Shown here piece by piece: positions 8,187-60,109 of a stretch of 64,000 nucleotides of DNA. Under the pieces are notes generated by a model that did not search any database, had not been told where the DNA came from, and saw only the letters and a list, made by a program, of their open reading frames with translations. The stretch is from Branchiostoma floridae. Taxonomy: Eukaryota; Chordata; Leptocardii; Amphioxiformes; Branchiostomatidae. The DNA lies in the NCBI RefSeq assembly GCF_000003815.2, contig NC_049996.1:10748838-10812837 (forward strand), written 5' to 3'. The stretch's first letter is position 1. Every line of letters starts with the position of its first letter. Made by a program: the position numbers and the translations under genes.

Positions 8187-8286
8187 NNNNNNNNNNNNNN
8201 NNNNNNNNNNNNNNNNNNNNNNNNNNNNNNNNNNNNNNNNNNNNNNNNNNNNNNNNNNNNNNNNNNNNNNNNNNNNNNNNNNNNNN
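8187..8286. other. assembly gap (100 N)
   Basis: The gap falls exactly at the left end of a large inverted repeat, so it probably replaces hairpin sequence that failed to assemble. Confidence 0.95.
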
Positions 8287-21900: not shown

Positions 21901-24900
21901 GTAACCTTAAGTTTGCAAAGCTGGACCAGGTGTGTTATCTGAGTCTACAACTCAGAAAGAGCAGATTGTCTGACTTCCGTGGGTAATAAGAAAATAGTAA
22001 AACATGTCCAATCGGGAGTGCATATCTTCATAATCTGCCATGGGAATTACCCTATACATGTACCTGGCAAATTGGCACTAAAATGTATTGTGGACCCCTG
22101 AGAAGTGACATTTTGTACTATCTCCTTACCTCTTAAACTTCAATTCAGTTCCTAGAAGTGGTCGACACCAGTCCTTGCATCGAACAACACTGTTAAAATA
22201 CCACCCCAAGTACAACTTTCTGCCAAAAGTGACCACTCTAGGGATTTGACTGGTCACATTAGACAAGTGCCTAGTATGTATAAATGGCCAAGTGGTCCCT
22301 ATGCAGAGGTATGACTACATCTACCAACAAGTATGTGAAATGACCTGGTCAATTGGTGGTCCCTACACACACATCTATGACACGACCGTCGGCCGTCGGG
22401 CGATCCTTCCCGCGTTCGGGCTGGTACCTCGGGTGACACGGAATACACCTTGATGTATTCTATATTGTATCTAACTGAAAGTTACTGACCATCTCTGGCT
22501 GTGTGATCTGTGGGTAGAGTTTCCTGGCTCGGTCTCGGTACGCCTTCACAGCCATCAGGATACTCTCTGTTCCACCCGAGGTCAGTGACCCCACCACCTG
22601 GTCGTCGCCATGGAGAAATGATGCCACCATGCTCACTGTCTCTATCTCAAATCTCCTGCAAATGTGTCATGGAATAGAATTTACACACAATCATGTGGAA
22701 TGCAAAATTTACAAACTATGAATTCATATCAGCTACTTGTAGTCTTATGTTTCTAAATTTGCAGGCACGTGAAAGAATCTGTGATCCAACACACACACTC
22801 AAAAACACATATGCACATACACAATTAGTTAACACATGCACACACACAAACACACACACAAATGCACATACACACACGCAAACACACACAGTCACACAAA
22901 TACACACACACACAAACACACACAGAAACACACAGCCACACACACTCACACACACATATGCACATACACATATAGTATTACAATTGCACACACACAAACA
23001 CATGCTCACAAATGCACATTCATACACACACGCAAACACAAACACAAACACACACACAAGCACAAACACACACACACATATGCACAATCTCACATAGTAT
23101 TATCTAAAACACAAATTTTAAAACAAATACCATTTAAGTACTGTAAATGCATTTAAGTTCGCGGGGATTTAATTTCGCGGTAGCGGGAAAAAGGACTTTT
23201 AGCGGTGGTTTCAATTTCGCGGTAACACCATAGACTGCAGTCTCATACCATGATAGAAAAATATTCGCGGTGGTTTTAAATTCGCAGTGAAGTGGTCACC
23301 GCGAAAACCGCGAACATTAATCCACCGCGAACATTTCTGCATTTACTGTAATGTGTCTGGTATAAGTCCCATCCTTACCTGAGAGCGGGGAATAGAAGAG
23401 GGTTGAGTGCGTTGGTGTGGAGGAAGGACTGGTAGACTTCCTGCACGAACCGGTCATGATCGTCTCCCAGCCCTGTCTGCTCCATAAACATCTCTACTGC
23501 CTCCTGAGCAGACAAAAACAGTACGGGAAATTCAATCAGGAAAAAAGTGGAGCATACACATACAAGCAGATACATGTAGGCTTGATAGGCTGTTAATTGG
23601 CTTCGTTCTTTTCTACAATGAGGTGTTGCACTTTCGTGACAGTCGAGTTCAAGCCACAGAGATGGTATGGCCACACTGACTTAATTTTCGATGACATCCT
23701 CTGGAGAACCCAAAACTAATGTGCGAGGGCAAAAAAAAAATCTTAGAGAAATCCTGAAAAAAAGTGCTGCTTAACATCCAGTCCATTCTGTATTCTGTAT
23801 TGTATTATGTTCATCTCTAGTAAGACTGTAAGAGACAATCATCACCATTTCAATAATGCTTTTATTCTTGTTTACAGAGGGAAACAAGTCTAAGGGTGCT
23901 GCGCCCCAAGCCCTGACCATGTGCCCACTTTGTCAGCAGATCCTCTGGCAAGCATAAAATTCTAATACATCGGGAATGCTATTGGGTGACATGTGGCCAC
24001 AGTTTTTTTTCTTTGGAAAACAGGAAGAAATCAATGCACACGTGGATGTCATCCATGAAATTAAGTCAATGTGGCCTAACAAGATTGTTTACCTTTTGTT
24101 TAAACCTTTATCTGTGGAGTGACCTCGTATAGCCTTATCATCTGGGATATAAAATTGAGGGACAGTGATTTCAATTTGCAATATTTGGAAGATATTGTAA
24201 TTTGAAACCACTGTCCATGTATTTGATATCCTTGAATACCTTGTTATCAAACACAACGGATATTGGTTACCCAGCGAATAAAGGTTAACCACCATTATAT
24301 GTTTGCCGCATTGCGCGTTGGTCCACACGATCCCTCGATCTTGGAAGTTAAGCACTGCGGGGTCCGGACAGTACTTGGATGGGAGTCCAACCAAGGACAA
24401 CCGGATTGCTGTAGCCTCACGAAGCTTTCCACGAAATCGTCTTCCGGAAGGGACGTAAAATGGGGGTCCCATGCTCAAAGAGGTGCCTCGACCACGTTTA
24501 ACAACCTCATTACCCACTCTTTGGGTACCTACTGGCTGCAAAATACACCCAATATTATTATCATTTACCTTCTGTATTTTGGATGCATCATCTTCCTTTA
24601 GAGTATAGACATAGGCAAACATCCTCCCTGCATGGGGGTCTGCATCCTTCTCCTTCTGTAACCTCTTCATCTCCTCAAGTATGACTTCATAGGACAGACC
24701 TGCGAATATGTCACAACAACTTGGTTTTATTTTCTATTGTTTGCTTCTCGTAAGAACATAAAAATGACAGTGAATTAATAAATGATTTATAATACAATTT
24801 CCTTGGATTGGCATTAGTCAAAATACTGGACACAAGTTGCCTAATAGAAAGTGTTTGACATTGCACATAGTTACTATTAAATATACAATGTATCACATAC

Positions 24901-30075: not shown

Positions 30076-30410
30076 TACGAAGGACCATTGGGACAAAACC
30101 TGTTTTAGCGAAGGAGCTGTGTGCTCACAGCGAAGGGGCTGCATGCTCGGCGAAGGAGCTGTGTGCTCACAGCGAAGGGGCTGCATGCTCGGCGAAGGAG
30201 CTGTGTGCTGACAGCAAATGGGCTGTGTGCTCAGCGACGTACCTGTGTGCTCGGGGAAGGAGCTGTGTGCTCACAGCAAAGGGCTGTGTGCACCAGGCTG
30301 AAGTTGGCCGCCGATTGGTAGCCGCCGATCCAGCCGCCGATTCGTCATTAGACAAAATATAGCATCCCATTCAGACGCCCATTCGAAGAAACAAAAAATT
30401 CCTAATTTCC
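30076..30410 (+). repeat. inverted repeat, left arm, with 42-bp minisatellite
   Basis: Starts ACGAAGGACCATTGGGAC, then repeats of AAGGAGCTGTGTGCTCACAG alternating with GCTGCATGCTCGGCG, then GGCTGAAGTTGGCCGCCG and CATTCGAAGAAAC. The same series, inverted, is at 33679-34055. The basic unit is 42 bp, so an open frame (KELCAHSEGAACSA repeats) survives through it. Confidence 0.9.
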
Positions 30411-30570: not shown

Positions 30571-31155
30571 AATCGGCTGCCATACGTATACGGCTTGTAG
30601 AGCAATCTGCTACTTATCTAGACGTGGCCTGTGAATTTTTAAGACGAATTTAGATAGCGCATACCCTAACGTATTCAAAACAAGTATCAAATCTTACGGG
30701 CCGAATTTAATTAATGATAGAGGGGAATTAGCCTCCATAGCAGGCTCTCTATGGCCTTTTTTGGCNNNNNNNNNNNNNNNNNNNNNNNNNNNNNNNNNNN
30801 NNNNNNNNNNNNNNNNNNNNNNNNNNNNNNNNNNNNNNNNNNNNNNNNNNNNNNNNNNNNNNNNNNNNNNNNNNNNNNNNNNNNNNNNNNNNNNNNNNNN
30901 NNNNNNNNNNNNNNNNNNNNNNNNNNNNNNNNNNNNNNNNNNNNNNNNNNNNNNNNNNNNNNNNNNACCTCTCCCGTGAACCCAAGCAAAGGGGATGCTA
31001 AAATCGGCTGCCATATGGCTTGTAGAGCACTCTGCTACTTATCTAAACCTCTCCCGTGAACTTTTAATACGAATTTAGATTGCATATACACCAACGTATT
31101 CAATACAAGTATCAAATCTTAAGGACCGGATTTAATTGATAAACTAGAGGGGAAC
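30571..31155 (+). repeat. direct repeat of about 150 bp around an assembly gap
   Basis: AAAATCGGCTGCCATA, then GGCTTGTAGAGCA.TCTGCTA and CAAGTATCAAATCTTA occur at 30575-30720 and again at 31000-31155. The 201 N between them (30766-30966) probably hide further copies. Confidence 0.8.
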
Positions 31156-33678: not shown

Positions 33679-34055
33679 TGAAATTAGGAATTTTTAGTTT
33701 CTTCGAATGGGCGTCTGAATGGGATCCTATGTTTTGTCTAATGACGAATCGGCGGCTGTATCTTAGGCTACCAATCGGCGGCCAACTTCAGCCTGGTGCA
33801 CACAGCCCTTTGCTGTGAGCACACAGATCCTTTGCCGAGCATGCAGCCCTTTGCTGTGAGCACACAGCTCTTTCGCTGTGAGCACACAGGTACTTCGCTG
33901 AGCACACAGCCCATTCGCTGTGAGCACACAGCTCCTTCGCCGAGCACGCAGCCCATTCGCTGTGAGCACACAGCTCATTCGCCGAGCATGCAGCCCCTTC
34001 GCTGTGAGCACACAGCTCCTTCGCTAAAACAGGTTTTGTCCCAATGGTCCTTCGT
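33679..34055 (-). repeat. inverted repeat, right arm, with 42-bp minisatellite
   Basis: Minus-strand copy of the arm at 30076-30410, with more minisatellite units and an open frame of the same KELCAHSE-type repeat. The two arms enclose about 3.3 kb that contains an assembly gap. Confidence 0.9.
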
Positions 34056-34667: not shown

Positions 34668-36617
34668 TTATTTCATTCTAACCAGGACGAGAACCACCGC
34701 CCCCACCAGCCCCCACAGCAATGTCGTCTGCGGTGTCATGGCAACCGCCCCGGCGACGTTACACTTGTCCTCCCAGCAGCAGTCGACGCATGCGTACTTG
34801 TCGCCGGTCATGTCTGCGCGCCAGCATGGCAGGCCGCTCTCCTGCTCCAGCTCACAGGCAGACTTCACGGAACACGTCTTCTCTATCTTCATCTTCTGGT
34901 GCCACGGCTCGCGGATCTCTGGGAAAGGATGAAACATCATCAATTAATTGATTGATTGATTAATTGATTAATCAATACGTTCGTTCATTTATTACTACAC
35001 TAGTTCATAAATTAATCCATCCATTAATCATTCGTTGGACCGTTCGTCCGTCCATTCTTTCATTCATTCGTCCGTTAACGTTGTTCGTTCCTTCCCTCCC
35101 TCATTGTTTCATTAATTCATTTGTTCGTTAATTGGTTGTTCATTCATTTATTTACAGAGCTAGCATCCAAAACACAGTAGTGAGTATTTGACCCTATTCT
35201 CGACGTCTACCTCCAGCTTATAAAGTAGCTCTTTTGAACTTTATTGTTGATAAAACTTTGTTCTGTACTTGAGCAAAGTGTTTTTCAAAGAAAAAGTTTA
35301 TCTATTCATAGCAACACCCTTTCTTTCAGTCATATAAGAGTCATAGATGATCAATCATTGAGTCACGTTTGGTATCTGACAAACATATGCAGGATGTTGA
35401 GCGGTGTCTTAATTATTCCTGACGGTTCCCACGTAGTTCTCACGCGAGTTGATCTTTCTGAACAAGCTCTGACGTCAGAGATGAAATTAGTCGCAATCTT
35501 TCAATTTTATTATGCATGTAAATATCTGAGTCATCTACGCAAATTGCCAAAAAAGAGCAATGTATTAAGTACTATACCAGGTGCAGTGGTTTTGATAACG
35601 GCCCTATCACATAAGTGGTACGATTGTTGTACGATCGCACACTAACAGCATTCTTTGTATAGCCGTGCATATATTGTGCAAATTTCACTTGTCTCGTTAC
35701 AGAAAGTTAATGTTACAGAACTTTGTCGGGGTTAGTTTTGCCACAGCCTTACCTGAGTATCACCCTGCTTAGCTTAGGCTAACGTCACAAATAATGCCCA
35801 AGACTATTCTCTTTACGTCTTTTCTATCATACTTCTCGTACCGAAAGCTGCCCGGTCGAGCCACGGTATACCGGTAGGAAATGTGACGTAGGCCCGACCA
35901 GGATGATAATCAGGCTAGCTATAGTCACAGCCCCCTACGACGTCAAAATCGCACGACGAATGTGGCAACCTTTATGTCGGAACACGTTCAGTTCTGCGGC
36001 CCAACAGCCCACACAGAGTACAATTAAGAGTACTTTTAGTGAGAATGAAAACTCACTGTCGTAGTCGATGGTTGTCATGCAGGTGTCCATCTCAGCCTGA
36101 GGACAGTCCACCACCCACTTGTCCGTGTTACACAGCCGGTTGTCGTGCGTCTGTTCACACGAGTAACATTTCAGACTCAGTCCTAGTAGGAAGAATAAAC
36201 AAAAACGACAAACGTGTTTAGATCCCTGTTAGAGCATATTACAAAGAATTAGAAAGAATCGAAGAAAAACCAAACAACGACAAACATCTGTTTAGATCCC
36301 TGTTGGGGCATGACTAAGAATAAGAAAGAATCGAAGAAAAAATGACAAACTTGTGTTTAGATCCCTGTTTGGAGCATGACTAAGAATTTATTAATAGAAA
36401 GAATCGAATAAAAAACACAACGACAAACATCTGTTTAGATCCCTGTTAGAGCATGACTAAGAATTGTTGAGAATAAATGAGATTCGCCCATTCATTTGAC
36501 GGCTAGATATTCATCTTAAGTATGAACCGACTGACGAGAAGAACTCACGAAACGTTTCCTACCTGTTTTTACCAGAAATGCGACAAACAGCCACAGTGAA
36601 CACGTCCTCAGTGCCAT
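34668..36617 (-). CDS. Ly6/uPAR-domain (three-finger fold) surface protein, 3 exons
   Basis: Exons in transcript order: 36563-36617, 36057-36182, 34668-34918; 432 nt, 143 aa. Introns are GT-AG and phases agree (1, 1). Residues 1-18 (MALRTCSLWLFVAFLVKT) form a signal peptide. The next exon gives LKCYSCEQ, the standard opening of an LU domain, with further cysteines. The last exon carries CSVKSACELE and the closing YACVDCCWEDKCN, where C-x2-CC-x4-CN is diagnostic. A hydrophobic tail (TTLLWGLVGAVVLVLV) then suggests GPI-anchor replacement rather than a lasting membrane span. The family acts in cell-surface binding and receptor modulation; the partner is unknown. The orthologue cannot be named from sequence alone. 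Confidence 0.85.
34940..35150. repeat. low-complexity TTGAT/TTCATTCG tract
   Basis: ATTGATTGATTAATTGATTA passes into TTCGTTCATT/CCATTCATTCG runs inside the second intron of the Ly6 gene. Confidence 0.8.
35773..35895. mobile_element. partial MITE family A
   Basis: TTAGGCTAACGTCACA at the left and GGAAATGTGACGTAGGCC at the right, with CTATTCTCTTTACGTCTTTT and AAAGCTGCCCGG inside. The left CCGG block is deleted. Confidence 0.65.
36205..36470. repeat. tandem repeat of about 65-80 bp, 4 units
   Basis: GACAAAC followed by GTTTAGATCCCTGTT recurs at about 36207, 36278, 36343 and 36422, with AGAAAGAATCGAA in between. It lies in the first intron of the Ly6 gene. Confidence 0.85.
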
Positions 36618-43083: not shown

Positions 43084-43948
43084 CGCCACATAATGAGTGA
43101 AATGATATAAATTAGAACGTTCGAACATGTTTTTCCCACATATATATACAACTTAACATGATTAAACACTGTCTGAAGTTCCAGCCAAGCATTACAGTAT
43201 TTGCAACCTCAATCATAGTAGGTAAGATAGTGGATAAAGGACTGGCTCTTAAGTTGCGATTGTCGTATTGACGTCATCAAAACCCGATAAGACAGAAGTT
43301 AAGATCTTTGTACAAATCTAAGTAATTCTTAAAGATAAGGCAACCAATGAAGCGAATCTGTTTGTACGCACAAAGTACTTTCTCAAGTTGGAAGATTTGG
43401 TCAAAACACATTATTCTTGTCCAAAAGTTTTTATTGTACTTTCTTTGGATAAGTACATTTCTCAACAGAAGAGCGTGTACATGTGTGAAGATCTTGTATA
43501 GGGCTGACATGTGGAAATGAAGCCATTATATTTGTGTGTAGCGCATACTGCAATTCAAACATGATTTATGTCAAGGCTATTCATCGTAAGGACATATCTG
43601 TAGGGGAAGATTTCACACAGGCAGTGGACGAGATAACATGTAGTCAATGGCGTAAGTTAAGTTGGAGCCAGGCATTGTAATCAGCTTTCAACGTATGACT
43701 GCAAAGACTTTTACTGAATATGATCATGTGAGTCTTTCGCTTAGACAAGCGCCCTCAGCGGCAAAGGCAGGCCTGTATGTGGATTATACTCAAATCTATC
43801 TATCAAACAATCTAGTCATGAATGAAATTCGAAATGGTATGGTACAACTCTAGATCTAGTACAAAGCTTTAATATGGTCTTCATAAGAGTCCAGTGAGCA
43901 TGGTTTTCACGGCTGTAGTCAAGAGAAAATCGGTGCCACAACACCAAG

Positions 43949-44310
43949 TAAGGCTAAGGTCATATTTCCAAACCGGGCTCCGGCCGGGTAGCTTTCGGAA
44001 ACGAAAAATATGATAAGAAAGGCAATAAAACACACAAAATGTAAAAAAAAATTGCCAGGAGCATAATTTCTGTATATTCCTTGGAAAACACTTTTTGAAA
44101 ACGGGACCTAAGCCTAAGGCTAACGTCACATTTCCAAACCGGGGCCCAACCGGGCAGTATGTGGAAACGAAGAATAGAAATGTATTCATGCAAATATACA
44201 CAAACAATGCTCACGACTATTCTCTTTACGTCTTGTGTAGTTTGGTGTCTTTAATATCATACTCTTCGTTTCCGAAAGCTGTCCGGCGGGGCCCAGGTTT
44301 GAAACATTTG
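43949..44310. mobile_element. two back-to-back MITE family A copies
   Basis: The first copy runs 43949 to about 44116 (AAGGCTAAGGTCATATTTCC to GGGACCTAAGCCT). The second starts at once with AAGGCTAACGTCACATTTCC and ends near 44310 at GGGGCCCAGGTTTGAAAC. Confidence 0.75.
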
Positions 44311-46373: not shown

Positions 46374-46764
46374 GTCTGCTTAACTGTTGAATATGTAATC
46401 TGTAAACGTAAATCAGTAATCACAGGGATACGTGCAGGTCGCAACTGCTATTGCTACCGTGAAAAATGGTGGAACAAAAATGCATACTCTTTGGCTTGTT
46501 TGTATGTTTGTATGTCAGTGTATCCATTAGAAGAACCTCTTGATGGATTGTGATGATATTTGGTACATTAGTAGATGTTATGAATACGGAGGACAACGTC
46601 GATGTTGGGCCCTCTGTCGACTGGCCTTGGTACTGCAACAAAAGTTCATTTTTAGCATCTTTTGTCCTGGACATGCAATGGTCTTAGTATAGTCGATTTC
46701 AATAACTGAAATGCATATGAGCATCTTTGGAAGATGTTCTTGGATAAACTTAAGAATCTGTTAA

Positions 46765-46995
46765 TGACCTACGCCACATTTCCAAACCAGGGCCCGGCCG
46801 GGCAGCTTTCGAGAACATAAAGTAAGATATAAAAGGCAGCAACCTACACAAAACGTAGAGAGAATAGTCATGGACATTTTTTGTGTATATTTTTAAGCAA
46901 CACGTCAGCAGATTACGTATATGTATGCATTTCTATTTCTTGTTTCCACAAACAGTCCGGCCGGGCACCGGTTTGGAAATATGACGCTAGCCTTA
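46765..46995 (+). mobile_element. MITE family A copy just before the orexin exon
   Basis: Left GACCTACGCCACATTTCC, right GGAAATATGACGCTAGCC, with GGGCCCGGCCGGGCAGC and GTCCGGCCGGGCACCGG inside. It ends about 38 bp before the acceptor of the orexin exon at 47034. It contains a TATAAAAG string at about 46832. Confidence 0.8.
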
Positions 46996-47037
46996 TTAGG
47001 AGTATTTCACCATGTTTCTTCCCATCTGCACAGCTCA

Positions 47038-47565
47038 ATGGCTGGCAGGCAGGTTGCTGTCGCTGTGTTGGTCGTGGCCATGCTGTTCCGCTGTCGCGCC
47101 CAGAAGCCAGCGTGCTGTGAGTCCGGCTCATGCATCTGTCCTTACGTCAGCCGCCTGCACAGCCCGGGGAATCATGGTTACGGGATTCTGACGACGGGGA
47201 AGCGACAGTGGAGACACGGCCCGGCCACTCTGTCACCTGATCAACTTGTCACTGCGTCTCACGGACAGGGCGTCCCGGTTTTAGAGGGTTCAGACAGGTG
47301 AAATAACTATGTTTGAACTTCAACTTGAAATATACATAGAACAATGCTAAACTTTCTTCCAAACAAAAGTATACATGGATCAAATTTTCAACGACCACTG
47401 TCGATATCCGCGTATACTGATGAGTTGGAAGAAAGTTAAGCATTGTACTATAACAACTACCAACACAGATTAGCTTCCATAATGAAATATACTTGTAATA
47501 TCTTATTTTGCAGGTTCGCATGCACCCATAGTCTAATTGGAATTACGTGGGCTCGTAAACAATAG
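47038..47565 (+). CDS. orexin/hypocretin-type neuropeptide precursor 1, 2 coding exons
   Basis: Coding exons 47038-47297 and 47514-47565, 103 aa. An acceptor (TCTGCACAG) ends at 47033, four bases before the ATG, implying an upstream untranslated exon. Residues 1-21 (MAGRQVAVAVLVVAMLFRCRA) are a signal peptide. Cleavage would leave an N-terminal Gln able to form pyroglutamate. The mature peptide has CC-x4-C-x-C, the orexin-A disulfide spacing, then GNHGYGILTT-GKR, giving C-terminal amidation after Gly and dibasic cleavage. The precursor tail has no second clear peptide. The second intron (CAG|GTGAAA ... TTTTGCAG) is in phase 2 and the last exon ends WARKQ. ATTAAA strings follow at about 47620. 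Orexins act through class-A GPCRs in arousal and feeding in vertebrates; the role here is not known from sequence. Confidence 0.9.
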
Positions 47566-47609
47566 GTGTGGTAGAGACATAGGAAAAATACATACGACAA
47601 GGAAAGCGA

Positions 47610-48320
47610 TTGACATTTATTAAATTAATTAAAATTAAACTAATTTAAATCCTTAACGTTATGTTGGATATATCTACATGTAGACAATATATAGAATGTA
47701 TAGCAGCTATATATACAGGACGTAGGATATGTTACAACTATGTTTCACCATCAATCGTGTACAATAATGAGCACTTTTTGAATATCTTTGCTCTACATAT
47801 ATGAAGACGAAATGCACTTTAAACCATACAACTTGTGATTTATCCGACGCATTGTAATTTTCATACAAGGCTTCTACATGACCTTGGACAACTGAAAGAT
47901 GTTTTGCCATAGAGACCATTTAGACGTGGGGAATTAGACCAGGTTTCCAAACGCATGCGTTCACCCAAAATCTTTTACCTAGTTGGTTTAGAGCAGAATC
48001 TGCAATAAGCATAATAGCTCTAGCGAAAAGATGTAACGCCAAGACACAAAAGTTAATGTCACACATTCGTACCTATCCATACTCTATTTGACCAGAGATG
48101 GTACGGTACTCCCGATTGAATACTGCTGTCAGGTCTTCCGGCAAAGACGTGACAACGTGGGATCTTAAGACGGAGAGGTAAGCTTAGTACCAGGCGGAAG
48201 CCTCAGAGGGCTAAGCTTTTAGGAAAGCACGGCAAGCGATCATCTGTTGTAATGTTTAATGAAACCTGTGCAACTGGCACTAAAAATGCCGTTGAGTTGA
48301 CCATAGAGCATCCGCATTGA
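47610..48320. other. no gene seen
   Basis: AT-rich 3' flank of orexin 1; nothing else is supported. Confidence 0.5.
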
Positions 48321-48327
48321 TACGGAA

Positions 48328-49385
48328 CGTCTGTCATGTCTGATAAACATCTAGTTCTACCATCCCTGAACTCTCACTTCCGAAAGTTTAGCCATCTTCC
48401 TACTCCCTTCCTACCACTCTTCTGACAGTGTATCAAAATATCTACGAACTGTGCATCTGGCGCTATACTGATGGTCAATGAGTAGACAACGGTCTATAAT
48501 GTATCGCTGTTTATTCTGTTACTTATGAGATTGGTTTCTGGAGTTTCTCTCAACAGGACCAACTACACCTTAGGTATCATATGGTTAAGTTTTGTCCTCC
48601 TGATGATTTAAAGGCGCCCACAAGTCTCCCAAATGGTTGCTGAAAGCCATATGTGCAATTACGTCCTAGACACAATACTGACCCGGAATTACCCGCGAGA
48701 TGTCGGCTCTGGTTGGACGACACCATTGCCAGCCTTACGGATAGCCACCGGTTCTTCTTTTGATCTTAGGAATGTCTCAACATCCCGTTGGACACCTTTT
48801 TTTACAGGAAAACAATTATCCATCACAGACAGACAAACCAGCTAGAACTGTTGGCTCTAGGGAAAGAATGATCGAAGTAGATGCAGTGATGTCGTCAGCT
48901 GATCATTTTTGGATATGGTAGAATATTCCTTTAGGTGGAATAAAACAGGTGCATTGCTATGGAAATGCGCACATCAATACCGTTTGCAAATCATGTCTTA
49001 TGTAAGTCAATTGTTTTATAGCATCCTGTGAGGAGAGTATTGATTACCGATGTCATTTGCCATAAGTCGGTGGGTTTCTTCGTAGCGAGGTTTCGTCTAT
49101 CTTGTTTACTTATTAGACAGCGTGTTGTGTGCCAAATTATATTGTCAAACCATTTTTGTCCATTGGTCACTTCTGTGAAAACACGAACAGATAGACCAAG
49201 GCAACACCTTCCCATGAGGTAGTTTAGTGGCAGTAGCCTGGAATGACAGTCATGTCTGACGAATAATTAGTTCTACAACCTCTGAACTCCACTTCCTGTC
49301 ACTCCCGAGAGACCGAGAGTTAACACCATATTCCCATTCTCTTCCTGTCACACTCTACTGACGATTTATTCAAATAGCCACGAAC
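48328..49385 (+). repeat. two direct repeats of about 125 bp, 920 bp apart
   Basis: GTCATGTCTGA.*AGTTCTAC, then CTGAACTC.*CACTTCC and ACTC.CTTCCT. occur at 48328-48450 and 49248-49385 in diverged form. Confidence 0.65.
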
Positions 49386-49599
49386 ACACGAACACAAACA
49401 TCTACTCTAATAAATAGACCTCCGTACGTGGAGGCAACATGTAAGGAATTCCAAGACACACTTATGCAAGCCAATACAGCAAGGAGCTAGTCCACTGGTA
49501 CATTGTGCTGATGTGTGTTTAACTCCCATACCCGTCCTCATTAGTGCTGAGTGCTAAGCAGATAAAGCAGCATGTACCAGTTTAAAGTCTTTGGTATGA

Positions 49600-49790
49600 C
49601 TTGGCCGGGAATGAACTCACGTCCTACCGAATGCATGGCAAAGACTCTCCCACTCGGCCATTGCACAGGAAAGAATACATTATCAAATATGATTTCTTAT
49701 GATTCAGAGACGGGATCAAACTCACAACCTACTGAATGCAAGGCAAAGACTCTCCCACTCGGCCATTGCACCGGAAAGAATACATTATCA
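49600..49790 (-). mobile_element. tRNA-like SINE head, tandem pair
   Basis: CCTACCGAATGCATGGCAAA and CCTACTGAATGCAAGGCAAA, each followed by GACTCTCCCACTCGGCCATT, are about 96 bp apart. Minus-strand reading is tRNA-like (AATGGCCGAGTGGGAGAGTC). Confidence 0.65.
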
Positions 49791-49859
49791 AATATGTTTC
49801 CTTATGATTCAGAGACGGCCCCGTCATCAGTGTCCGTGTCCGACTGCACCGCCTGGCCG

Positions 49860-51850
49860 AGCGACTCCACAACCTCAGAGGTAAGTGCACCCGACCCTAA
49901 TATCACTCTAACAATCTGTGTGCTTCCATTGCGATGCCAGTTAACGAGTGATATGCAATCAGAACTCAGCCTTTGTGTGAGTCTACAAAACACCACAATT
50001 GTGGTGTTTATCTGCCAGTGAAAGTTGAGTGACATCCACGCGCTTGGAATGATCCCCTTTTTTTATTGCCGCATGTTAACAACATGAGTAAGAATACAAA
50101 GCAAGAAAGGTTCATTGACTTTTTCTCTTAGGGCACCCTGTACTTATAGAGTGATAAAATCTTCTGAACCTCGGCTTACAAGAATTATATACGATGTGAA
50201 CATCATAAAACCCATGGAATATTGAAACTATCCTCTAACCAGATATTTTGGTCTCTGCCAACTGGAAGGATGAAAGCAATAAAAAAGGTTTATGTATAAA
50301 AAGTGAACAACTCAGTGACTTTAGGCAGGTTTTTAAACTGCAGCACAATTACTCGTATATAACATGGTAAGACACCACAGTACATGCACGGTACTAGATT
50401 GTAATTTCATGATTATGAAACGCAAAGTGGTCGTTAAAAGTTGTTCTCACCAAAAACTGATAAAATTTCTCCAGAAGGCTAAAACAACCACCAAATGGCA
50501 GCCTTTTATCCTACACCTCGGGAGAAAGTATAGAAATCAAACAGGATGGATTCAGTGACTTACTTGAGGGGGTGGCTCACGTAGTAATCTAGATCCCATT
50601 TCTTTTCATGTAGATAGAAAGAGATTACGTTAATCCGTTACTTTAGGAGCGATGATCCTGAAACAATTAGACCCTAAGACACGCCAATGGCAGGTAATTT
50701 GCTTGAATCATAAAGGTGTGATGGTGAGATAAAAACATGATCGTAGCGTGGGGCTGATAATGCGGAGATTAAGTTGTACTCCATTCAGGAATGACTGTAA
50801 ACAAAACAGCGCTTCGACAGATTAAGACAAGTCTCAGCTTCTGACGCCAACGGTATGCCTGTGAGGGTGTAAGAGTTGAACTTTTACCTATAGCCTCAGA
50901 AGGCATTTTCATCTAGTTCGTCATGCTAACCAAATGGCTTCTAGCATGATAGGCAGTGGAAAGGCAAAGGGGAAACATATGTGCTTCATAGAGGCAAGTT
51001 TTTTTACCAAGTTTAAAAGTTTGAAGGCATTCACCAGTACCAATTTAAACACGCTTGTGATGTAAAGGATTGCCATAGTGGGAAATGTTGTTCAATACAT
51101 CAGTTACACGAATGCTTATATTCAAGTCCGTATGACTTACGTATTTACATTTTTTGGCTTTTAATAGGTAAAGTTTGCTTTAAAGAAGCTAACTTTTTCT
51201 TTGCCTTGACCGACAGTTGCGCAGCTTGGTTATCTAACCGAAAATATTACTTCGTCGGCCTCAAAGTGTACCTGAGCTAAAATAAAGTCAACACGCAGCT
51301 CATACGGACTTAAATATGCGCACTAGAGTGACTGATCCCGTACGACGAACGTGACCATGACGTTCCAGATGATGGTGCTCTAACAGGTGGAACTGTGTGC
51401 ATCTCTAGGTAGTTGGCTCAGTCCCACCTAGTGCAGACTCAGCAATAAGTAAGGCATGAGGGAAGCCTCCTTACACTTATCCCTTAATCGCACCATTCAT
51501 CAACCATACTGTGTCTGAGTCACTTCGAGCCAGGGGAGATTTGTATCTCACTGCAAACCGTGAAAACAAACAGACATACTGGCACCCGCTGAAGGCCGCT
51601 ACCGTCTGTGGAGCAGTCTGCATAGGTCACGGAGAAGCAGAGATGCCGGAAGACTCGGGAATCTAACGTTAAGGGGAGCCAATGTCGTTCAAAGATCTGT
51701 ATCCAAATTATTTCCTGCGATAGCGGGGGAGGATTTGGGAAATGTGGCTTTCCGTTGGAACGGTTTCTAGTGGTGGTACTAGCCTGTGGCGGCGTCGTGA
51801 GTCTGAGTGTACTGAGAGCAGGGATGGCGTCACTCAACGACATGTGCTTA
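49860..51850. other. no gene recognised
   Basis: Open frames up to 114 codons (minus, 51520-51864) show no domain, signal peptide or splice context that I can defend. Confidence 0.45.
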
Positions 51851-51851
51851 A

Positions 51852-52210
51852 GAGGGTATCTCATTGAACTGTGCTAGGGATTTGCGTCAACTTTGCGAAT
51901 TTGTGTCGATTTCTCCCCTTCGGCCACAATACTGACTTGCGACGCATTGCGTATGAACCCAGATGAGCTAAAGAAAATTGCCGCGCCTTGAATGTCAGAT
52001 TCTTAGTTTCAGTGTCTTTAACAGGAATCGCAGTGATGCCATAGAATTTAAAACTAATGTCCAACGATTCAAAATGTACCAAAAAGAGATTTGAAGTGTA
52101 AATAGACGATCATCATTTTGCGATGTTTCGAGAAAAATTGTGCCGATTGACTGATGTGCGACATTTTGCGAATGTCTGACGCAATTTGGAATATACCAGT
52201 GAGATACCCT
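51852..52210. mobile_element. DNA element with AGGGTATCTCA inverted ends, about 360 bp
   Basis: AGGGTATCTCATTG at the left and CAGTGAGATACCCT at the right. Inner parts also pair loosely (TTTGCGTCAACTTTGCGAA against TTCGCAAAATGTCGCAC on the inverse strand). No coding capacity. Confidence 0.65.
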
Positions 52211-52214
52211 AACT

Positions 52215-55200
52215 ACACGAAGGGTATTACAAACTGACACAACAAGTATGGAAAACGTGAGTGTTGCACTAGCTACAGCTACTTCGATTTCAAATTCCTA
52301 CAGATTTATCTTGTAACGTGTTTACTCATTGATGTCACAGATAAATCGTTGACGAAAGCTTCCCGACTGTGGCTGAGCCCCGGCCCGGGACTCACCCTGG
52401 TGGAACCGCCGGCCTCAACACAGCAGCGCGCTACGGACCGGCGGTAGAACTGGTCAACCCGCACGGGGATAAGTCAACCGGTACTAGAGCCAACCAACCA
52501 GCAAGCAGGAACGAAATTTGAATAACAACGGATTTATGATGCCGTTATGACGAAGGCAATCACGAAATGTCATGGACTTTGTCCTGTATTTCGTTGATGA
52601 TGATGATTAAAGAAACGAGTATTCTAAGATAAAACGTAAGGCGTATATGATTACTTCGCAAATATCTTTACGATCACAAGAACAGATTTGTTGTTATATT
52701 ATGGAAGAACCGTTTCTCTCTATGTACTTTAAACAACGATTACTACCTGAAATCATGACCTGGCAAGTACTTTACAAACACATGAAAGCAAGGAACAACA
52801 AATCCTTGTGTTAATGTTTTCCAGCCTATGTTATAGATGATTGCGATATCTTTTGATTCTTCAGCGCATCTATAGCACTCGGTGAATGACATATGTAGGA
52901 TCTTATCATCTTTGACAAGAAATGAAATTTCCTGATTGAGGTTGGTTTGTCTGCGTATGTTTACTACTAGATATACCATACACCACTAGTTTTACTAATT
53001 CATTCCGAAAGTTACTCGTTAAACTATGTATAATGCGGTGTACAATTACAAGGCGAAAAGTCTTATTTTATTCGCAAAAGAGGTTTCCAAAAGGCTCGCA
53101 CAGAAAAGGAAAAGGATGTACCCATGATAGCATTTCAGAGTACCTAACTAAATAGTTTGTAACGGTGCAGGGAAACCCATACTTTGTTTTTGAAGACAGA
53201 CATCTAAGACATCTTGCTCGATCTAAGTTGGTAAAAAAGCTCAAACTTAGTAAACTATTTTTCTCAATAATACTTGGTAAAAATTACAAACAGACGAAGC
53301 AGCAATTCGTATGATAACTCTTAGCAGTCAATTTCTTAACTGTGAAGATGAACAAATAAAACTTGATAAAACAAATGTCTGATGGCATAACATTATTGAG
53401 CAGGTAAACATGTACATGTATGATATACTGTTTTTACCATTATAGATGAGTTAGGTCATTGGGAGAAAACCACTCTTTAAACAAACCTTAAAGCGTTTTC
53501 CATTAAGAATTGAATGGAATGAAGATGACGAGCCTTTATGCCACACCGGGCATTCGATGGTTAAATAGCTTTATTACATCAAGTATAATGTGACACAAAT
53601 CTAGTTCAAATCATAACAGCATCCGGTCATAATATGTGGGGTAATTGGGGAGTCAGTGCTGGAAGTATGACAAAATATGACTTATTATTATAGTATTTAC
53701 CGCTTATACGGTACAGATACCGTTCCATTCCAGTGATCCTAAATCCAGAAGCGACCCTACGATAAGCTATTGTAACACTAGCTATTATATTTGTTATCAT
53801 GACATTTTAACGGCCTAGAAGTTTGGTAACCAATCCTGCTAAAATACCATATTTCATATTTGCTACGAAATTGTCCTTTTTAAAAACAAATGAACGGAAG
53901 AAGAAAAAAGTTCATTTTCAGGTATCAATATTCATCATCATCCTCGCCGCATATTAGTCCAGTCAGTGTTTACTCATACTGGAGCGGGCCGTCATTGTTA
54001 TACACAGTTTCCTATCAATAGTGTAGACATCCGGGAAAAAAAAAGAAAATTCACATTGAGGTGTCATAGGGCTTTCCACCTTTATATACTTACAATGTGC
54101 GCTGCTGAATCTCTACTATACATGTTAATTGCTTGTGTTTCGTACACCCTAACATGAACCTACTACCCATACACACGACACAAAACCCTACATGATACTA
54201 GAGGATTGAATGCTTTGACACGTTTAGAGTTTGAAGAAATATCTGTTTGTCCTAGGAGCTGCCGTAGGTGCTGTGCTATCTTCTGTCGTTATGACGTAGG
54301 TCACAAATCCACCTTAATCTTACGGAGCGTGACACTGGACAAAGGTTAAAACATTAGACAGTTTTCCTCGCGTAGTCTTCCTAGAAATAGATGTCCTGCC
54401 TTTCACTAAGGCTGGGAGAGAAAAAGGGTAATCTATATTACACTCATAGACAATCCTTTAATGGTATGTCGTATTTATAGCTTATTTTCGGAGTATGATG
54501 CGTTATAAGACGGGCGTTACGGTACGAGAAAACCAAGGCTGAGGACTTTTGGGGTCTTCAAAAAGTACATGTTGCAGTTATTAAGTTTTTCTCATAAAGT
54601 GTCTTATTGCAAGCCGGTAATTTACGCAGATTTTTATGACGTCACGATGACGTGATTTGCTTTCGAGAAAGCGATATTTTTGTTTGCTTGGCTCACATGT
54701 TCCAAACAGTGACATCACCGGTTTGTGAGTCTTCAGGAGGACCTGTTCTATACCTCTTGATTAATTCTAGTTAATACTTTGTCTATTTGAATGTTTTGGG
54801 GCTACAGAAAGGCATGCATTCACACGCGGCAAAGACTGCAGTACTGTTACAAAGCGCTAGCCCCGTGGCAAAATCAACAATAAGAAACGAAAGAAGAAAC
54901 ATTGACCATGTTGCCGCAACAATCTTTATATTTGGTCGTATTCTACTGCATCAATGGCGCCGAATCACACGACGTTGAAGTGAGTAGTTCACTGAATTGC
55001 GTCAAATTGCGCCGTTGCAACTTTAGAATTTTCGCCAATTTTCCCTTGCCGGTACACATAACGTTGGACCCACATTCTCAATTTCGACTCCAAATCACGA
55101 GCAAGATAACTTTATTGGAAATTAAAGTTTTGCCACCAAACCACCAATGTACAGTGGTTAAGATTCATTTGCAGTGCAAACAACTTTCACAATTTGGAGC

Positions 55201-56960
55201 AGTTTAGAGAGATAAACGCTTTACCGCACTGTGAAACACACGAAACACCTACTGCAACAGTGAGATTGCCTAGTTTCTTACATAGCTCTTTGTTTGCTTT
55301 GGATGAACATGCTATTCCATCAACCCCAGGGACACTATCTACGTGGTACTTTAGAACAGCTAGGCATTCTTAACACACTCAAACTGAAAAACGTTTCAAT
55401 GAGAAGGTAAGTATCTATAGAATTCCTGGTAACTTATGGATTAGTTGAGACCGATAAGATCCGCCTTGGAGTAAACAAAAAGCAATGCAAAGTTCAAGAC
55501 ATGGCTGGGAATCTTGGAATTCATTGTACCAACTCTTTCAAGAAACATGCATGCTTATATGAATACATGTGTTGTTTAATTGAATGGGGCATAAAATGCT
55601 CTAACATCGCGAAAAAGGCGTCGCGTTAATTGCTAATAAATGTGCGATTGGACCAAACTTATAAAGTGCAAAATTCCTTCCAAATAAAATATATTTTCTT
55701 TTCATTTTCAAGTGTCAATTTTTGCTATCTTTCACGGAAATTGAAAGCACAATGTGAGATTAGGATCATCCTATATTTACTGCTTTATTACTGCAGCATT
55801 CAGCCGGAAACAGGTTTGTGCAGTAAAGGTGCAGTAAAGTAAGATCGGCGTCTTAGTTTCCAATTGCAAAAAAAATTGTCGGGGGGTCAACTACATTTTG
55901 TAGATATAATGAAACAAAAAAGATAGTTCCCTACTTATTTTGTTTAGTAATGTGTTTAAGCTGTTTGAAATGTACATCAGTTTTATCGACTCAATTATTA
56001 CAGATAAATGTGAGTTCAACAATGTGGCCTTTGTTTGGATATATGTTTACTTTCTTAATCACTTAATGTTGTTTGTCTTGGGTCACGTCCTTATGTGGGG
56101 TGCCTTTAACGGCGCATTGATATCTGCCAATGTCTCGGAGTAGTTTCGTATGGCTGCAGTTCGGTCTGTCGTCTTCTAGATCTGGCGTCAGCCTCAGCTG
56201 TGGGAAAATAGGAAAAAATGACGTCAGATATTTTGACGGTTTATCATCATCTGACCGTCAGACGGCTTATCTACCACAATTACTTGTTGACACTGTCACT
56301 GTGACAATGAATACGGTCTCCTTCGGTCAATATTGACCATGGTAAAATCCTAGTTGATAGCCCTACAGCGTCGACTGTGGCTATCCTTATGCAAGAATGA
56401 CAGTCTCTGCCACATGAAGCACGTCTGTAGGCTGACTCAGTTCTTTTTGCAGGATCCGCTTTAATTTCATCTGCCATGCGCATCAGTCTGGTTTCTCCTG
56501 ATTTATCTGCCTGATGTGCCTGTGTGTCTCTGACTTATAACCTATTTGCATACCATGTTACATACTTAACGCTAATTAGCATACTCATTTGCATACTTGG
56601 GAAAACATAATGAAACCGCTACCAGCCCACCTGTCAGATTCAGCAGCCGGCGAAGATGGTGCAGGAGTTCCCACACCTTGGAATGTTCAAGCTGGTTCTT
56701 CCGCTCACTGCGAAACAATAGAGAGGAACTTCCCGTTAGTGTGAAAGATCATTCGCAAAGACGAATAACATTGAACTCTGCCTAAACGACGGAAGGAGCA
56801 GGCGACGACAAATCCCACTAACTGTCGTTATACAGAGACAGAGGGCGATACAGGCTTTATGCGTGGTCACGTGTTTGTAAGGTCACGTGTCCCAAGTAAT
56901 GGGTCAAAGGGCTGTACGAGCAATCTCAATCGATGAGCTCTGCAGGTTGCTTGTACAGCT
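52215..56960. other. no gene recognised
   Basis: AT-rich sequence. A double CRE-like string (TGACGTCACGATGACGTGA) lies at about 54638-54656. No exon is recognised near it. Confidence 0.45.
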
Positions 56961-56968
56961 TCTATGGG

Positions 56969-57119
56969 TAATCCTTAATCTTCAAGCAGATTTTGCTGTG
57001 GCAAATGGAAAGGAGTTTAGCCGGCAAAGGAGTTATTGGCTTCGCTGTGGCCATTAACTCCTCGGCCGGCTAAACTCCTTCCCATTTGCCACAGCATGAT
57101 CTGCTTGGAGATTAGGTAA
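56969..57119. mobile_element. near-perfect hairpin MITE, about 150 bp
   Basis: GCTGTGGCAAATGG.AAGGAG and TTTAGCCGGC at the left are mirrored by GCCGGCTAAACTCC and CCATTTGCCACAGC at the right. The arms are about 65 bp with a short loop near TATTGGCTTCGCTGTGG. Confidence 0.92.
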
Positions 57120-57124
57120 TTCTT

Positions 57125-58480
57125 TCAAAGACATCATTGGAACTGAAAAAAATCGTCAGCCATCGTACGCAGCAAAAAGCTTCTGGAGGAAAATGCAACG
57201 TGACAACCCATGTAAAACAGACTCGTATCGTATGGAGACTGTTTTAGGCAATTGCCAGAACCAATTACCACTTACAGATGCAACAGCATCTCCATCGTGT
57301 GATTGGCTATTCCATCAGACAATTTTATTTGATAGTGTCTATCCAACAGGAGTCATTCGTCCAGAGGTTATCAATCGTCCTAGTTCCTGAATGCTGGGCA
57401 ACATAATAATTTGCTGCTGTCTTATACGTGAGGAAACTAACACATATTTCTTGTCAGCACTAGCCTTCATGGCTAAAACAATGCGATTTCTTGTCTTTAG
57501 TCATCAAGAAATCAACGTCAGTTCAACATTCAACCAACATCAAAGACTTATGGCCTATATGGCAGACGACATTCCAATGGCGAGGTTATCAAGAATGGCC
57601 GACCTTTTAACTGTCATAGTGACGAACTCGAGCAATGTAAACCTAAACCGACATGGAATTGTGACTTAGGGCTCTCTGTTGTCACCTTTGGTTTGAAGGG
57701 GTGGATTTGACATTTATCAGAAATCACGTCCCATTTCTCGATGATCCCAGGTGACCTCCTCACATGAATCAGCTTGTCATCAGCTATATTACAGCCACGG
57801 GCGAAGGGCAGCACCTTACAAGTCTCCTGTTCAACACCGTGCCGTTAACTTCTGATTGCTTTCTCCGTGTGGAATTCCAACAGATACGCCAGTTGTTCTG
57901 TGTGGTGCATGTCTATTATGATTGACCAGTGGTATTGCTGTAAGCTAACCCCTTATCCGTAGAGATCTACTTACTGGTATATAAGTAGTATTAGACTGCA
58001 TGATTTTTAAAGATACGATCATGTTATTAGATGTCTTTTGTCGTTTCAGTATGTTCAAAAGAAGACGAGGTCACTGATAACTTGTAAGGATATGGGTCTC
58101 TTCTAGTCTCTCCCCGTGGCAGGTTGACCACAGAAATATTGTTTTATCACATTTCAAACATGATTTGATCTTTACTCCAAGGCAGGGATCGATGTGTTAG
58201 GAAATTTCCAAAGGGAGTCGGTAAACATACTGAAACGAAAATAGTTTGAAATCTGCCTAAGGCCTATGCGTTTTGTCTGAAAGTATGATTATCTATACTG
58301 GACTTTTTGATCTCGATGATTTGTATATCGTTTAAAACGAAAATGGTCGTATAGCCTAACATATAATGACCCATCACTTAGGGCAGAAAGTTTCCATAGA
58401 AAGTTTCAGTAGCAGGATATGTTTTTACAGGTAAGAGTTGTTCGCCCTTTAACGTGCCAGCCCATTTGATATGTGACTCC
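57125..58480. other. no gene recognised
   Basis: Frames of up to 92 codons (57193-57669) lack recognisable motifs. Confidence 0.45.
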
Positions 58481-58489
58481 AATATTACG

Positions 58490-58595
58490 TCCCTTCCGAA
58501 AGACGGATACAGCCCCAACGAAGATGCCCCGACCAAGTTTTGAACCACGGTCTCCCTGTTACCAATCAATTGGAACCAGGTGCTTAACTGTGAGG
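58490..58595 (-). mobile_element. tRNA-headed SINE (CGGAAGGGACG body)
   Basis: On the minus strand a tRNA-like head with GTGGTTCAAAACTTGG (B box) leads to GTCTTTCGGAAGGGACG, the start of the body shared with 24.4 and 60.2 kb. It is truncated after that. Confidence 0.65.
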
Positions 58596-58661
58596 CTGCT
58601 ATAGGGGCATTCCTACCACTTTTACAGACAATAGGGAACTAGGCGTGAGGAGATCCCTTGT

Positions 58662-58867
58662 TAGGCCTACGTTACATCTCCAAACCGGGGCCCGGCCGGA
58701 CAGCTTTGGGGAACGAAAAATGTGATATAAAAGACACCAAACTACACAAGACGTAAAGAGAATAGTAGTGGGCGTTATTTGTGTATATTTTTACGTATAC
58801 ATTTCTATTTTTCGTTTCCACAAACAGCCCGGCCGGGCCCCGGTCTGGAAATGTAACGTTAGCCTTA
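58662..58867 (+). mobile_element. MITE family A copy just past the orexin 2 exon
   Basis: TAGGCCTACGTTACATCTCC at the left, GGAAATGTAACGTTAGCC at the right, and GGGCCCGGCCGGACAGC/CAGCCCGGCCGGGCCCC inside. It ends 74 bp from the coding exon of orexin 2. Confidence 0.85.
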
Positions 58868-58940
58868 ACAGCAATGGTGATGATGACGATCATGATGAAC
58901 ACAAATCGCCTGACCTTATCTGATAGTGAACGGAACTAAC

Positions 58941-59266
58941 CTATAATCGTGGTCTAACGTAAGTTCCGGTAACCCTTCCAGTCGGTCCAGGTCTACCTGG
59001 GCCCGGTCGTGGAGGTCCACCAGAGAGGTGGGGAGTCCTCCATGGGAGGGGTCGTGTTCCCCTCGGGGGAGGGACTTGTATTCCCCCTCGCCTCTTTGCC
59101 TCTTGCCGACGGTGAGGATGCCGTGTCCATGGTTACGGGGACCGAAGAGACGTCTGAAGTGCGGGCAGTTGCACGTCCTTCTCCAGCAGCATCTCGGGAA
59201 GGCCCATGATCCTTTGCACAGCAGGCCAACGAACAGCACCGCCAGGAGTACATGCATGCAACGCAT
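58941..59266 (-). CDS. orexin/hypocretin-type neuropeptide precursor 2 (main coding exon)
   Basis: From the ATG at 59266 the frame encodes a signal peptide (MRCMHVLLAVLFVGLLCKGS, then WA). A mature peptide with CC-x4-C-x-C and RNHGHGILTV-GKR follows: orexin cysteine spacing, amidation Gly and dibasic site. Compared with orexin 1, the first Gly of GNH is Arg and the predicted N-terminus is Phe, so no pyroglutamate is expected. The acidic tail follows. The exon ends GATTATAG|GTTAGT in phase 2 (after 108 codons), the same phase as in orexin 1. The final exon was not found; reading on gives a stop after only a few more codons. The acceptor CCTCCCACAG lies four bases before the ATG, as in orexin 1. 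Confidence 0.85.
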
Positions 59267-60109
59267 CTGTCTGTGGGAGGAGACAAAAATGCGTTAGAAA
59301 GTTGTTACGGTTGAAGCATTTGGAAAGAATCCATTTCCATGTATATATGAATCCCAAACGCCAAGTTGGAGTAGTCCATTTGATTTCTCAACTCCAACAT
59401 CGATGACAAAGATGAGGAAGTAGCAAACTCAAAACGCACAGAAACAGAAAAGAAGAACAAAATCACTGAAAACAGTAAATCACACATACATATTTAATAC
59501 ATGGAAAGTGCCCACTGTAGACACACAAAAACAGAATATCTTTGATGGTTCAAAGGACACTTGTTGCGAAGTTAACCAGGCCCAACAAATCACGACCAGA
59601 AGCCAGTTTCTAGAGAACGATACCCGCCGCCCATTATTCGTAAGTGTCAGCAAGAAATGATATTCAAAGTGACTGTAAGTGGATTGTAAATAAAGAAATT
59701 TGTAAATGCTCCACACAAATCCATTAGATTTTAAAAACCATTTGTATAGGATGGAACAGGACCATTACTTTTGAACGTCAGTTGATTTAGTAAGCACTAT
59801 TGCAATTATAACTGGAAAGAGGTAATTTACATTAGCCATAACATCATCTACAGGAAATTATGAATCTAAAATACTGTGCTATGGTCAGGGCGCAGCAAGG
59901 GTAGATAGATTCAGATTAAACGTACAGTAAACCGAGTTCAACACATGGTAGAAAATATTCTCGCTTGTCAGCCAACTTGTAGCCCATTATTTGTTGAGAC
60001 CGAGAAGTTCGAAGAACCAAGTTACAATTAACGTCAAAGGCATTTAAGACAGCCGTTTGACACTCAGCAACGCCGAAGGAATGCCTCTGTGACTCAACTA
60101 AATCTAATA

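Follow-up and report, generated by a model that had tools for sequence, protein, structure and literature searches.

Two orexin-type precursor genes lie tail to tail in the lancelet Branchiostoma floridae

The stretch analysed here (the window) comprises 64,000 nucleotides of the Branchiostoma floridae genome (assembly GCF_000003815.2, contig NC_049996.1, positions 10,748,838 to 10,812,837 of the forward strand) and contains two orexin-type precursor genes, hereafter gene 1 and gene 2. The main coding exon of gene 1 spans 47038-47297 on the plus strand and holds 260 coding bases, while that of gene 2 spans 59266-58941 on the minus strand and holds 326, and each leaves two bases over after its last whole codon. 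Gene 1 reads rightward and gene 2 leftward, which makes the pair convergent (tail to tail), with 11.6 kb between the coding exons (47297 to 58941) and 12.2 kb from ATG to ATG; this arrangement agrees with a first-pass annotation that had placed two precursors on opposite strands about 11 kb apart. Each exon encodes a hydrophobic leader, a single orexin-A-type peptide and a GKR amidation and cleavage site. Specifically, the product of gene 1 reads MAGRQVAVAVLVVAMLFRCRA-QKPACCESGSCICPYVSRLHSPGNHGYGILTT-GKR-..., and that of gene 2 reads MRCMHVLLAVLFVGLLCKGSWA-FPRCCWRRTCNCPHFRRLFGPRNHGHGILTV-GKR-....

The motifs that the same annotation had picked out in both precursors, CC-x4-C-x-C, NH-x2-GIL and GKR, are present at these places and stand well above random expectation, as judged against 60 simulated order-1 windows whose base-to-base steps were taken from the window itself. 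The complete frame CC-x4-C-x-C-x10-NH-x2-GIL occurs twice in the six frames of the window, only in the two genes, and in none of the 60 simulated windows. NH-x2-GIL by itself is likewise found twice, against a simulated mean of 0.033, and GIL-x2-GKR twice (GILTTGKR and GILTVGKR), against none in the simulations. The short cysteine frame CC-x4-C-x-C is weaker evidence when taken alone, because the window holds it three times where the simulations average 0.25, the third occurrence (52800, minus strand) being unrelated. The full orexin-type frame at two loci is not a product of chance.

In line with the motif counts, both exons belong to the orexin family. The gene 1 run (47038-47300) matches Pfam PF02072 Orexin with an E value of 5.5e-08 and 33.3 bits, and the gene 2 run (58919-59266) with an E value of 5.6e-09 and 36.5 bits, both above the family cut-off of 22.6 bits. 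The first-pass annotation had called both genes orexin-type precursors and had named a better fit of the cysteine frame to another peptide family as the finding that would speak against this; in Pfam, Orexin was the sole family reported for each exon at E values up to 1. Among solved structures, human orexin-A (two entries) is the top match for each gene in one ungapped register, which covers 29 residues in gene 1 and 31 in gene 2 (E values of 2.2e-4 and 7.5e-5, respectively, for the better entry); gene 2 has one further weak match, to an unrelated enzyme (E 0.67). Over a core of 28 residues, the two genes are identical at 15 positions, and each shares 13 with human orexin-A. A hidden Markov model (HMM) built from these three sequences finds the fragments of both genes at about 1e-18 or better, scores that are not independent since both genes are in the model, and it detects no third orexin copy in the window, where the next-best fragment reaches E 0.15.

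Each precursor carries only one orexin-type peptide. The six frames of the window contain NH-x2-GIL at just two places, one in each precursor, so a second, orexin-B-like peptide is absent from both. The mature peptides contain four cysteines each, not the six of the ambulacrarian type. A strict motif for the cryptic allatotropin domain has no match in the six frames of the window, and two relaxed motifs, searched downstream of both genes, give a single match, at 52515, with stops close on both sides. An insect cryptic domain reaches E 6.4 at best against 1.6 for the reversed control. These negative results would be weakened by a third exon that escaped detection.

The features of both genes are listed in Table 1. 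The mature N-termini were placed by reading the leaders for hydropathy and the -3/-1 pattern. Orexin-A starts with Gln, and the N-terminal Gln predicted for peptide 1 would allow cyclisation to pyroglutamate. The first-pass annotation had suggested that the two peptides may differ in stability and receptor preference, given Gln and GNH in peptide 1 against Phe and RNH in peptide 2. The gene 2 precursor has three basic pairs, namely the KR of GKR, an Arg-Arg between the cysteines and an Arg-Arg in the hinge; the gene 1 peptide has no internal pair.

Table 1. Features of the two orexin-type precursor genes, in window coordinates
Gene	Feature	Position	Strand	Remark
1	Predicted acceptor AG of 5' intron, four bases (CTCA) before ATG	47032-47033	+	98.1 percentile of 7559 AG sites
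1	ATG	47038-47040	+	
1	Main coding exon, prepro-orexin 1, 86 codons + 2 bases	47038-47297	+	Pfam PF02072
1	Probable signal peptide, 21 aa	47038-47100	+	Peak hydropathy 3.26 over 11 residues; Cys -3, Ala -1
1	Predicted mature peptide, 32 aa, QKPACC...GILTT	47101-47196	+	13/28 core residues as in human orexin-A
1	GKR amidation and dibasic cleavage site	47197-47205	+	Exon has no other basic pair
1	Predicted donor GT, phase 2 (AGG split)	47298-47299	+	98.2 percentile of 8133 GT sites
2	Predicted acceptor AG, four bases (ACAG) before ATG	59271-59272	-	99.6 percentile of 7559 AG sites
2	Alternative acceptor AG, directly before ATG		-	98.5 percentile
2	ATG	59266-59264	-	
2	Main coding exon, prepro-orexin 2, 108 codons + 2 bases	58941-59266	-	Pfam PF02072
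2	Probable signal peptide, 22 aa	59201-59266	-	Peak hydropathy 3.25 over 11 residues; Ser -3, Ala -1
2	Predicted mature peptide, 31 aa, FPRCC...GILTV	59108-59200	-	13/28 core residues as in human orexin-A, 15/28 as in gene 1
2	Hinge Arg-Arg inside peptide	59150-59155	-	Would yield LFGPRNHGHGILTV-amide if cleaved
2	GKR amidation and dibasic cleavage site	59099-59107	-	
2	Predicted donor GT, phase 2 (AGG split)	58939-58940	-	98.2 percentile of 8133 GT sites

The first-pass annotation had also proposed matching introns in the two genes, a claim that stands in part. When ranked among all GT (8133) or AG (7559) sites on both strands of the window with splice-site matrices, the four predicted splice sites all lie at or above the 98th percentile, and both genes combine an acceptor four bases before the ATG with a phase-2 donor; the introns nevertheless stay at the level of prediction, and no third exon was found. 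Several features speak against a firm claim. If unspliced, both frames end shortly past the donors, gene 1 with a TGA at 47299-47301 that straddles the donor and gene 2 at 58918-58916, so that either gene could have a third exon but neither needs one. Additionally, gene 2 offers two acceptors, the spacing of four bases being that of one of them, and it has weaker donor candidates within the exon at 58996 (94th percentile) and 59020 (84th percentile) as well as another just past the stop at 58914 (98th percentile). Within 1.5 kb of the donors, polyadenylation signals (AATAAA or ATTAAA) are absent at gene 2, and ATTAAA occurs three times (47619, 47628 and 47634) about 0.3 kb past gene 1, where it would fit an unspliced gene end. 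Stop-to-stop fragments of at least 12 residues were compared between the downstream regions of the two genes, 322 from each; no shared exon was evident among the best 40 matches, and the strongest of these fall where palindromic repeats match themselves. The start codon could itself lie in an upstream exon, since four bases before the ATG amount to a phase-2 junction plus one codon.

The vertebrate orexin gene, as described in the part of PMC6031739 covered here, has two exons and one intron; in human HCRT the intron follows the first seven residues of the signal peptide, and exon 2 encodes everything after them. Genes 1 and 2 resemble it in having a predicted intron near the start of the signal peptide, and differ in that the predicted acceptor lies just before the ATG and a second intron is predicted downstream. 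Judged from these positions, the 5' intron may be common to the lancelet and vertebrate genes, and the downstream intron, if real, would be extra relative to the vertebrate gene.

The relationship between the two genes was examined at the protein and DNA levels. The leader, the peptide and the GKR site align between them, and the 15 identical residues in the core of 28 bear out the earlier proposal that the two precursors are paralogues, a conclusion that the sequences support. The tails that follow GKR, 30 residues in gene 1 and 52 in gene 2, are poorly alike. Third codon positions agree in 10 of 32 aligned codons, against a mean of 9.9 after shuffling, and 57% of 10,000 shuffles reach 10; the same codon is used at 4 of 19 shared residues, where base usage predicts 5.8. 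Because silent positions are saturated in this way, the duplication is old, and the retention of leader, cysteines, tail and GKR over so long a divergence argues that both genes are under selection.

Taken together, these findings are best explained by two paralogous prepro-orexin genes that lie tail to tail in the lancelet, each giving rise to one secreted precursor, and that stem from an old duplication, a reading to which we assign a probability of about 0.93. What weighs against it is that third positions agree no better than shuffled ones, so that paralogy rests on similarity of protein and sites and not on silent DNA similarity; that a blastn comparison of the gene neighbourhoods did not match one coding exon to the other; and that neither the 5' exons nor any third exon was found. 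The four matches that blastn did report around the genes comprise three to a repeat element and one of 62% identity between 46490-46674, upstream of gene 1, and 63391-63206, 4 kb upstream of gene 2. This last match extends over about 190 bases in gene orientation (E 6e-6) and may reflect a further repeat or a remnant of a duplicated 5' region.

Three other accounts of the pair, and of its age, were weighed. The saturated silent positions would also suit an origin of both genes before the lancelets, with loss of one lineage in vertebrates, instead of a duplication within cephalochordates, and sea urchin and starfish are likewise described as having two orexin-type precursors each (in the section of PMC4772807 covered). 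We regard this as unlikely, since the close linkage suggests a local duplication; in addition, a hand count of the 28 core positions finds 11 common to both genes and human orexin-A, 4 to both genes alone, 2 to gene 1 and human orexin-A alone and 2 to gene 2 and human orexin-A alone, a weak lean towards a lancelet duplication. That one gene is active and the other a decaying copy is a considerably less probable account. The unspliced precursor 1 does stop right at its donor, the tails after GKR differ in length and are poorly alike, and repeat elements lie close to both exons; yet the frame is open in both genes, and leader, the four cysteines, GIL and GKR are intact in spite of saturated silent positions, where an unselected copy would be expected to lose them, and both score above the Pfam cut-off. 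Least credible of all is a convergent likeness to orexin, with a cysteine frame that comes from a different peptide family. CC-x4-C-x-C is short and, with one unrelated occurrence at 52800, commoner in the window than simulated, but NH-x2-GIL follows exactly ten residues after the last cysteine in both genes, GKR comes in addition, and both genes match the Pfam Orexin family and human orexin-A.

By analogy with the orexin family, each paralogous precursor would lose its signal peptide, and a prohormone convertase would cut at the GKR site, where the exposed Gly would be converted to a C-terminal amide; such an amide is predicted because GKR follows the GILT-x tail in both genes. The CC-x4-C-x-C head would be closed by two disulphides, and the tail NH-x2-GIL-T-x, once amidated, would insert into an orexin-type G-protein-coupled receptor. 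It is also conceivable that the task of the single vertebrate gene is split over the pair. Gene 1 would then yield a long, disulphide-bonded, orexin-A-like peptide, probably capped with pyroglutamate, and cleavage of the gene 2 peptide at the hinge Arg-Arg would add an amide of 14 residues without cysteines, LFGPRNHGHGILTV, as a functional counterpart of orexin-B that evolved independently, through processing and not through an internal repeat. We consider this a long shot, because cleavage often spares basic pairs that lie within folded, disulphide-bonded peptides. Both orexins are described as active when cut to their 19 C-terminal residues, with some activity retained in fragments down to 12 (part of PMC4469407 covered).

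Several other elements were observed in the window. A family of short repeat elements of about 200 bases, with ends near GGCCCGGCCGGG, is represented at 46758-47000, 58656-58871, 43941-44304, 391-504 and 35786-35892. The three copies tested contain inverted repeats, and the copy at 58656-58871 matches its own reverse complement at 70% over 219 aligned columns; the acceptor of gene 1 has an element about 30 bases upstream, and the donor of gene 2 has another about 70 bases downstream. On the minus strand, 20552-20704 and 22463-22666 are exons of a sphingosine-1-phosphate lyase gene, their best solved-structure matches being lyases of this type. A tandem repeat of 103 bases in 5.9 copies (20637-21243) overlaps the lyase exon at 20552-20704, and its unit, judged by eye, holds the start of that exon together with the acceptor; part of the lyase coding exon thus seems to have been amplified as a minisatellite. 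Two further tandem arrays, at 30107-30291 and 33798-34025, lie 3.5 kb apart in opposite orientation and by eye share the same unit (GCGAAGGAGCTGTGTGCTC and its reverse complement). An exon-like frame at 35941-36228 (minus strand) has a weak u-PAR/Ly-6 Pfam match (18.7 bits against a cut-off of 24.8), and 34671-34943 (minus strand) resembles by eye the last exon of a u-PAR/Ly-6 protein and has no Pfam match. Runs of N, which are assembly gaps or masking, occupy 1589-1774, 8187-8286 and 30766-30966, 487 bases in total. Rfam gave no match in the window at the gathering threshold. When 10 of the 32 long frames of the window were searched against Pfam, none matched; in a second set of nine, most of them picked by eye among 45 of 600, two matched weakly, below the cut-offs. 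The frame at 24092-24733 (minus strand), which was in both sets, has no solved-structure match either.

The first-pass annotation had left open whether this pair has been described. Two orexin-type precursors with four cysteines each, GI:260807454 and GI:260780718, are in print for B. floridae (PMC4772807); like genes 1 and 2, these OX-type precursors 1 and 2 each carry a four-cysteine, orexin-A-like peptide, so that the pair is probably already known at the protein level, a comparison made from the published description. The two GI numbers are far apart, which suggests that the genes were not neighbours in that annotation, or else the printed precursors could be other than the present pair; gene arrangement is not described in the section of that paper covered here. 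The tail-to-tail arrangement was not found in the literature on lancelet orexins, a search outside which most subscription papers fell, and five peptide strings had no match in paper text, where sequences given only in figures or supplements would be missed. Orexin-like peptides have been suggested in B. floridae, B. belcheri and B. japonicum, and the orexin and receptor system of B. japonicum (Wang et al. 2019), with its receptor and physiological effects, likewise involves a cephalochordate orexin peptide, as described in the part of PMC10987541 covered.

Beyond the lancelets, human orexin-A (HCRT) has the same cysteine frame and NH-x2-GIL-T tail as genes 1 and 2, whereas vertebrate prepro-orexin also carries orexin-B, which both genes lack. 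Four cysteines are described as a chordate trait and six as an ambulacrarian one, which separates genes 1 and 2 from the six-cysteine ambulacrarian peptides (PMC4772807, section covered). The first tunicate candidate, with widely spaced cysteines at positions 6, 7, 18 and 25, is unlike them in spacing (PMC10987541, part covered). Ambulacrarian orexins and protostome allatotropins are placed in the same wider family by receptor orthology and precursor structure (parts covered of PMC4772807 and PMC5860471). A cryptic domain that is present in the allatotropin and Saccoglossus precursors was not found here and is described as lost in chordates (PMC5860471, part covered); in the same vein, the part of PMC10987541 covered reports that, among orexin sequences, the cryptic peptide is limited to that of Saccoglossus.

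The pair leaves this picture of the family unchanged. To judge by the tail-to-tail arrangement, the two lancelet precursors already in print may stem from a local duplication. Lancelets are early-branching chordates, and two orexin genes without orexin-B bear on the time at which the vertebrate precursor with both orexin-A and orexin-B arose.

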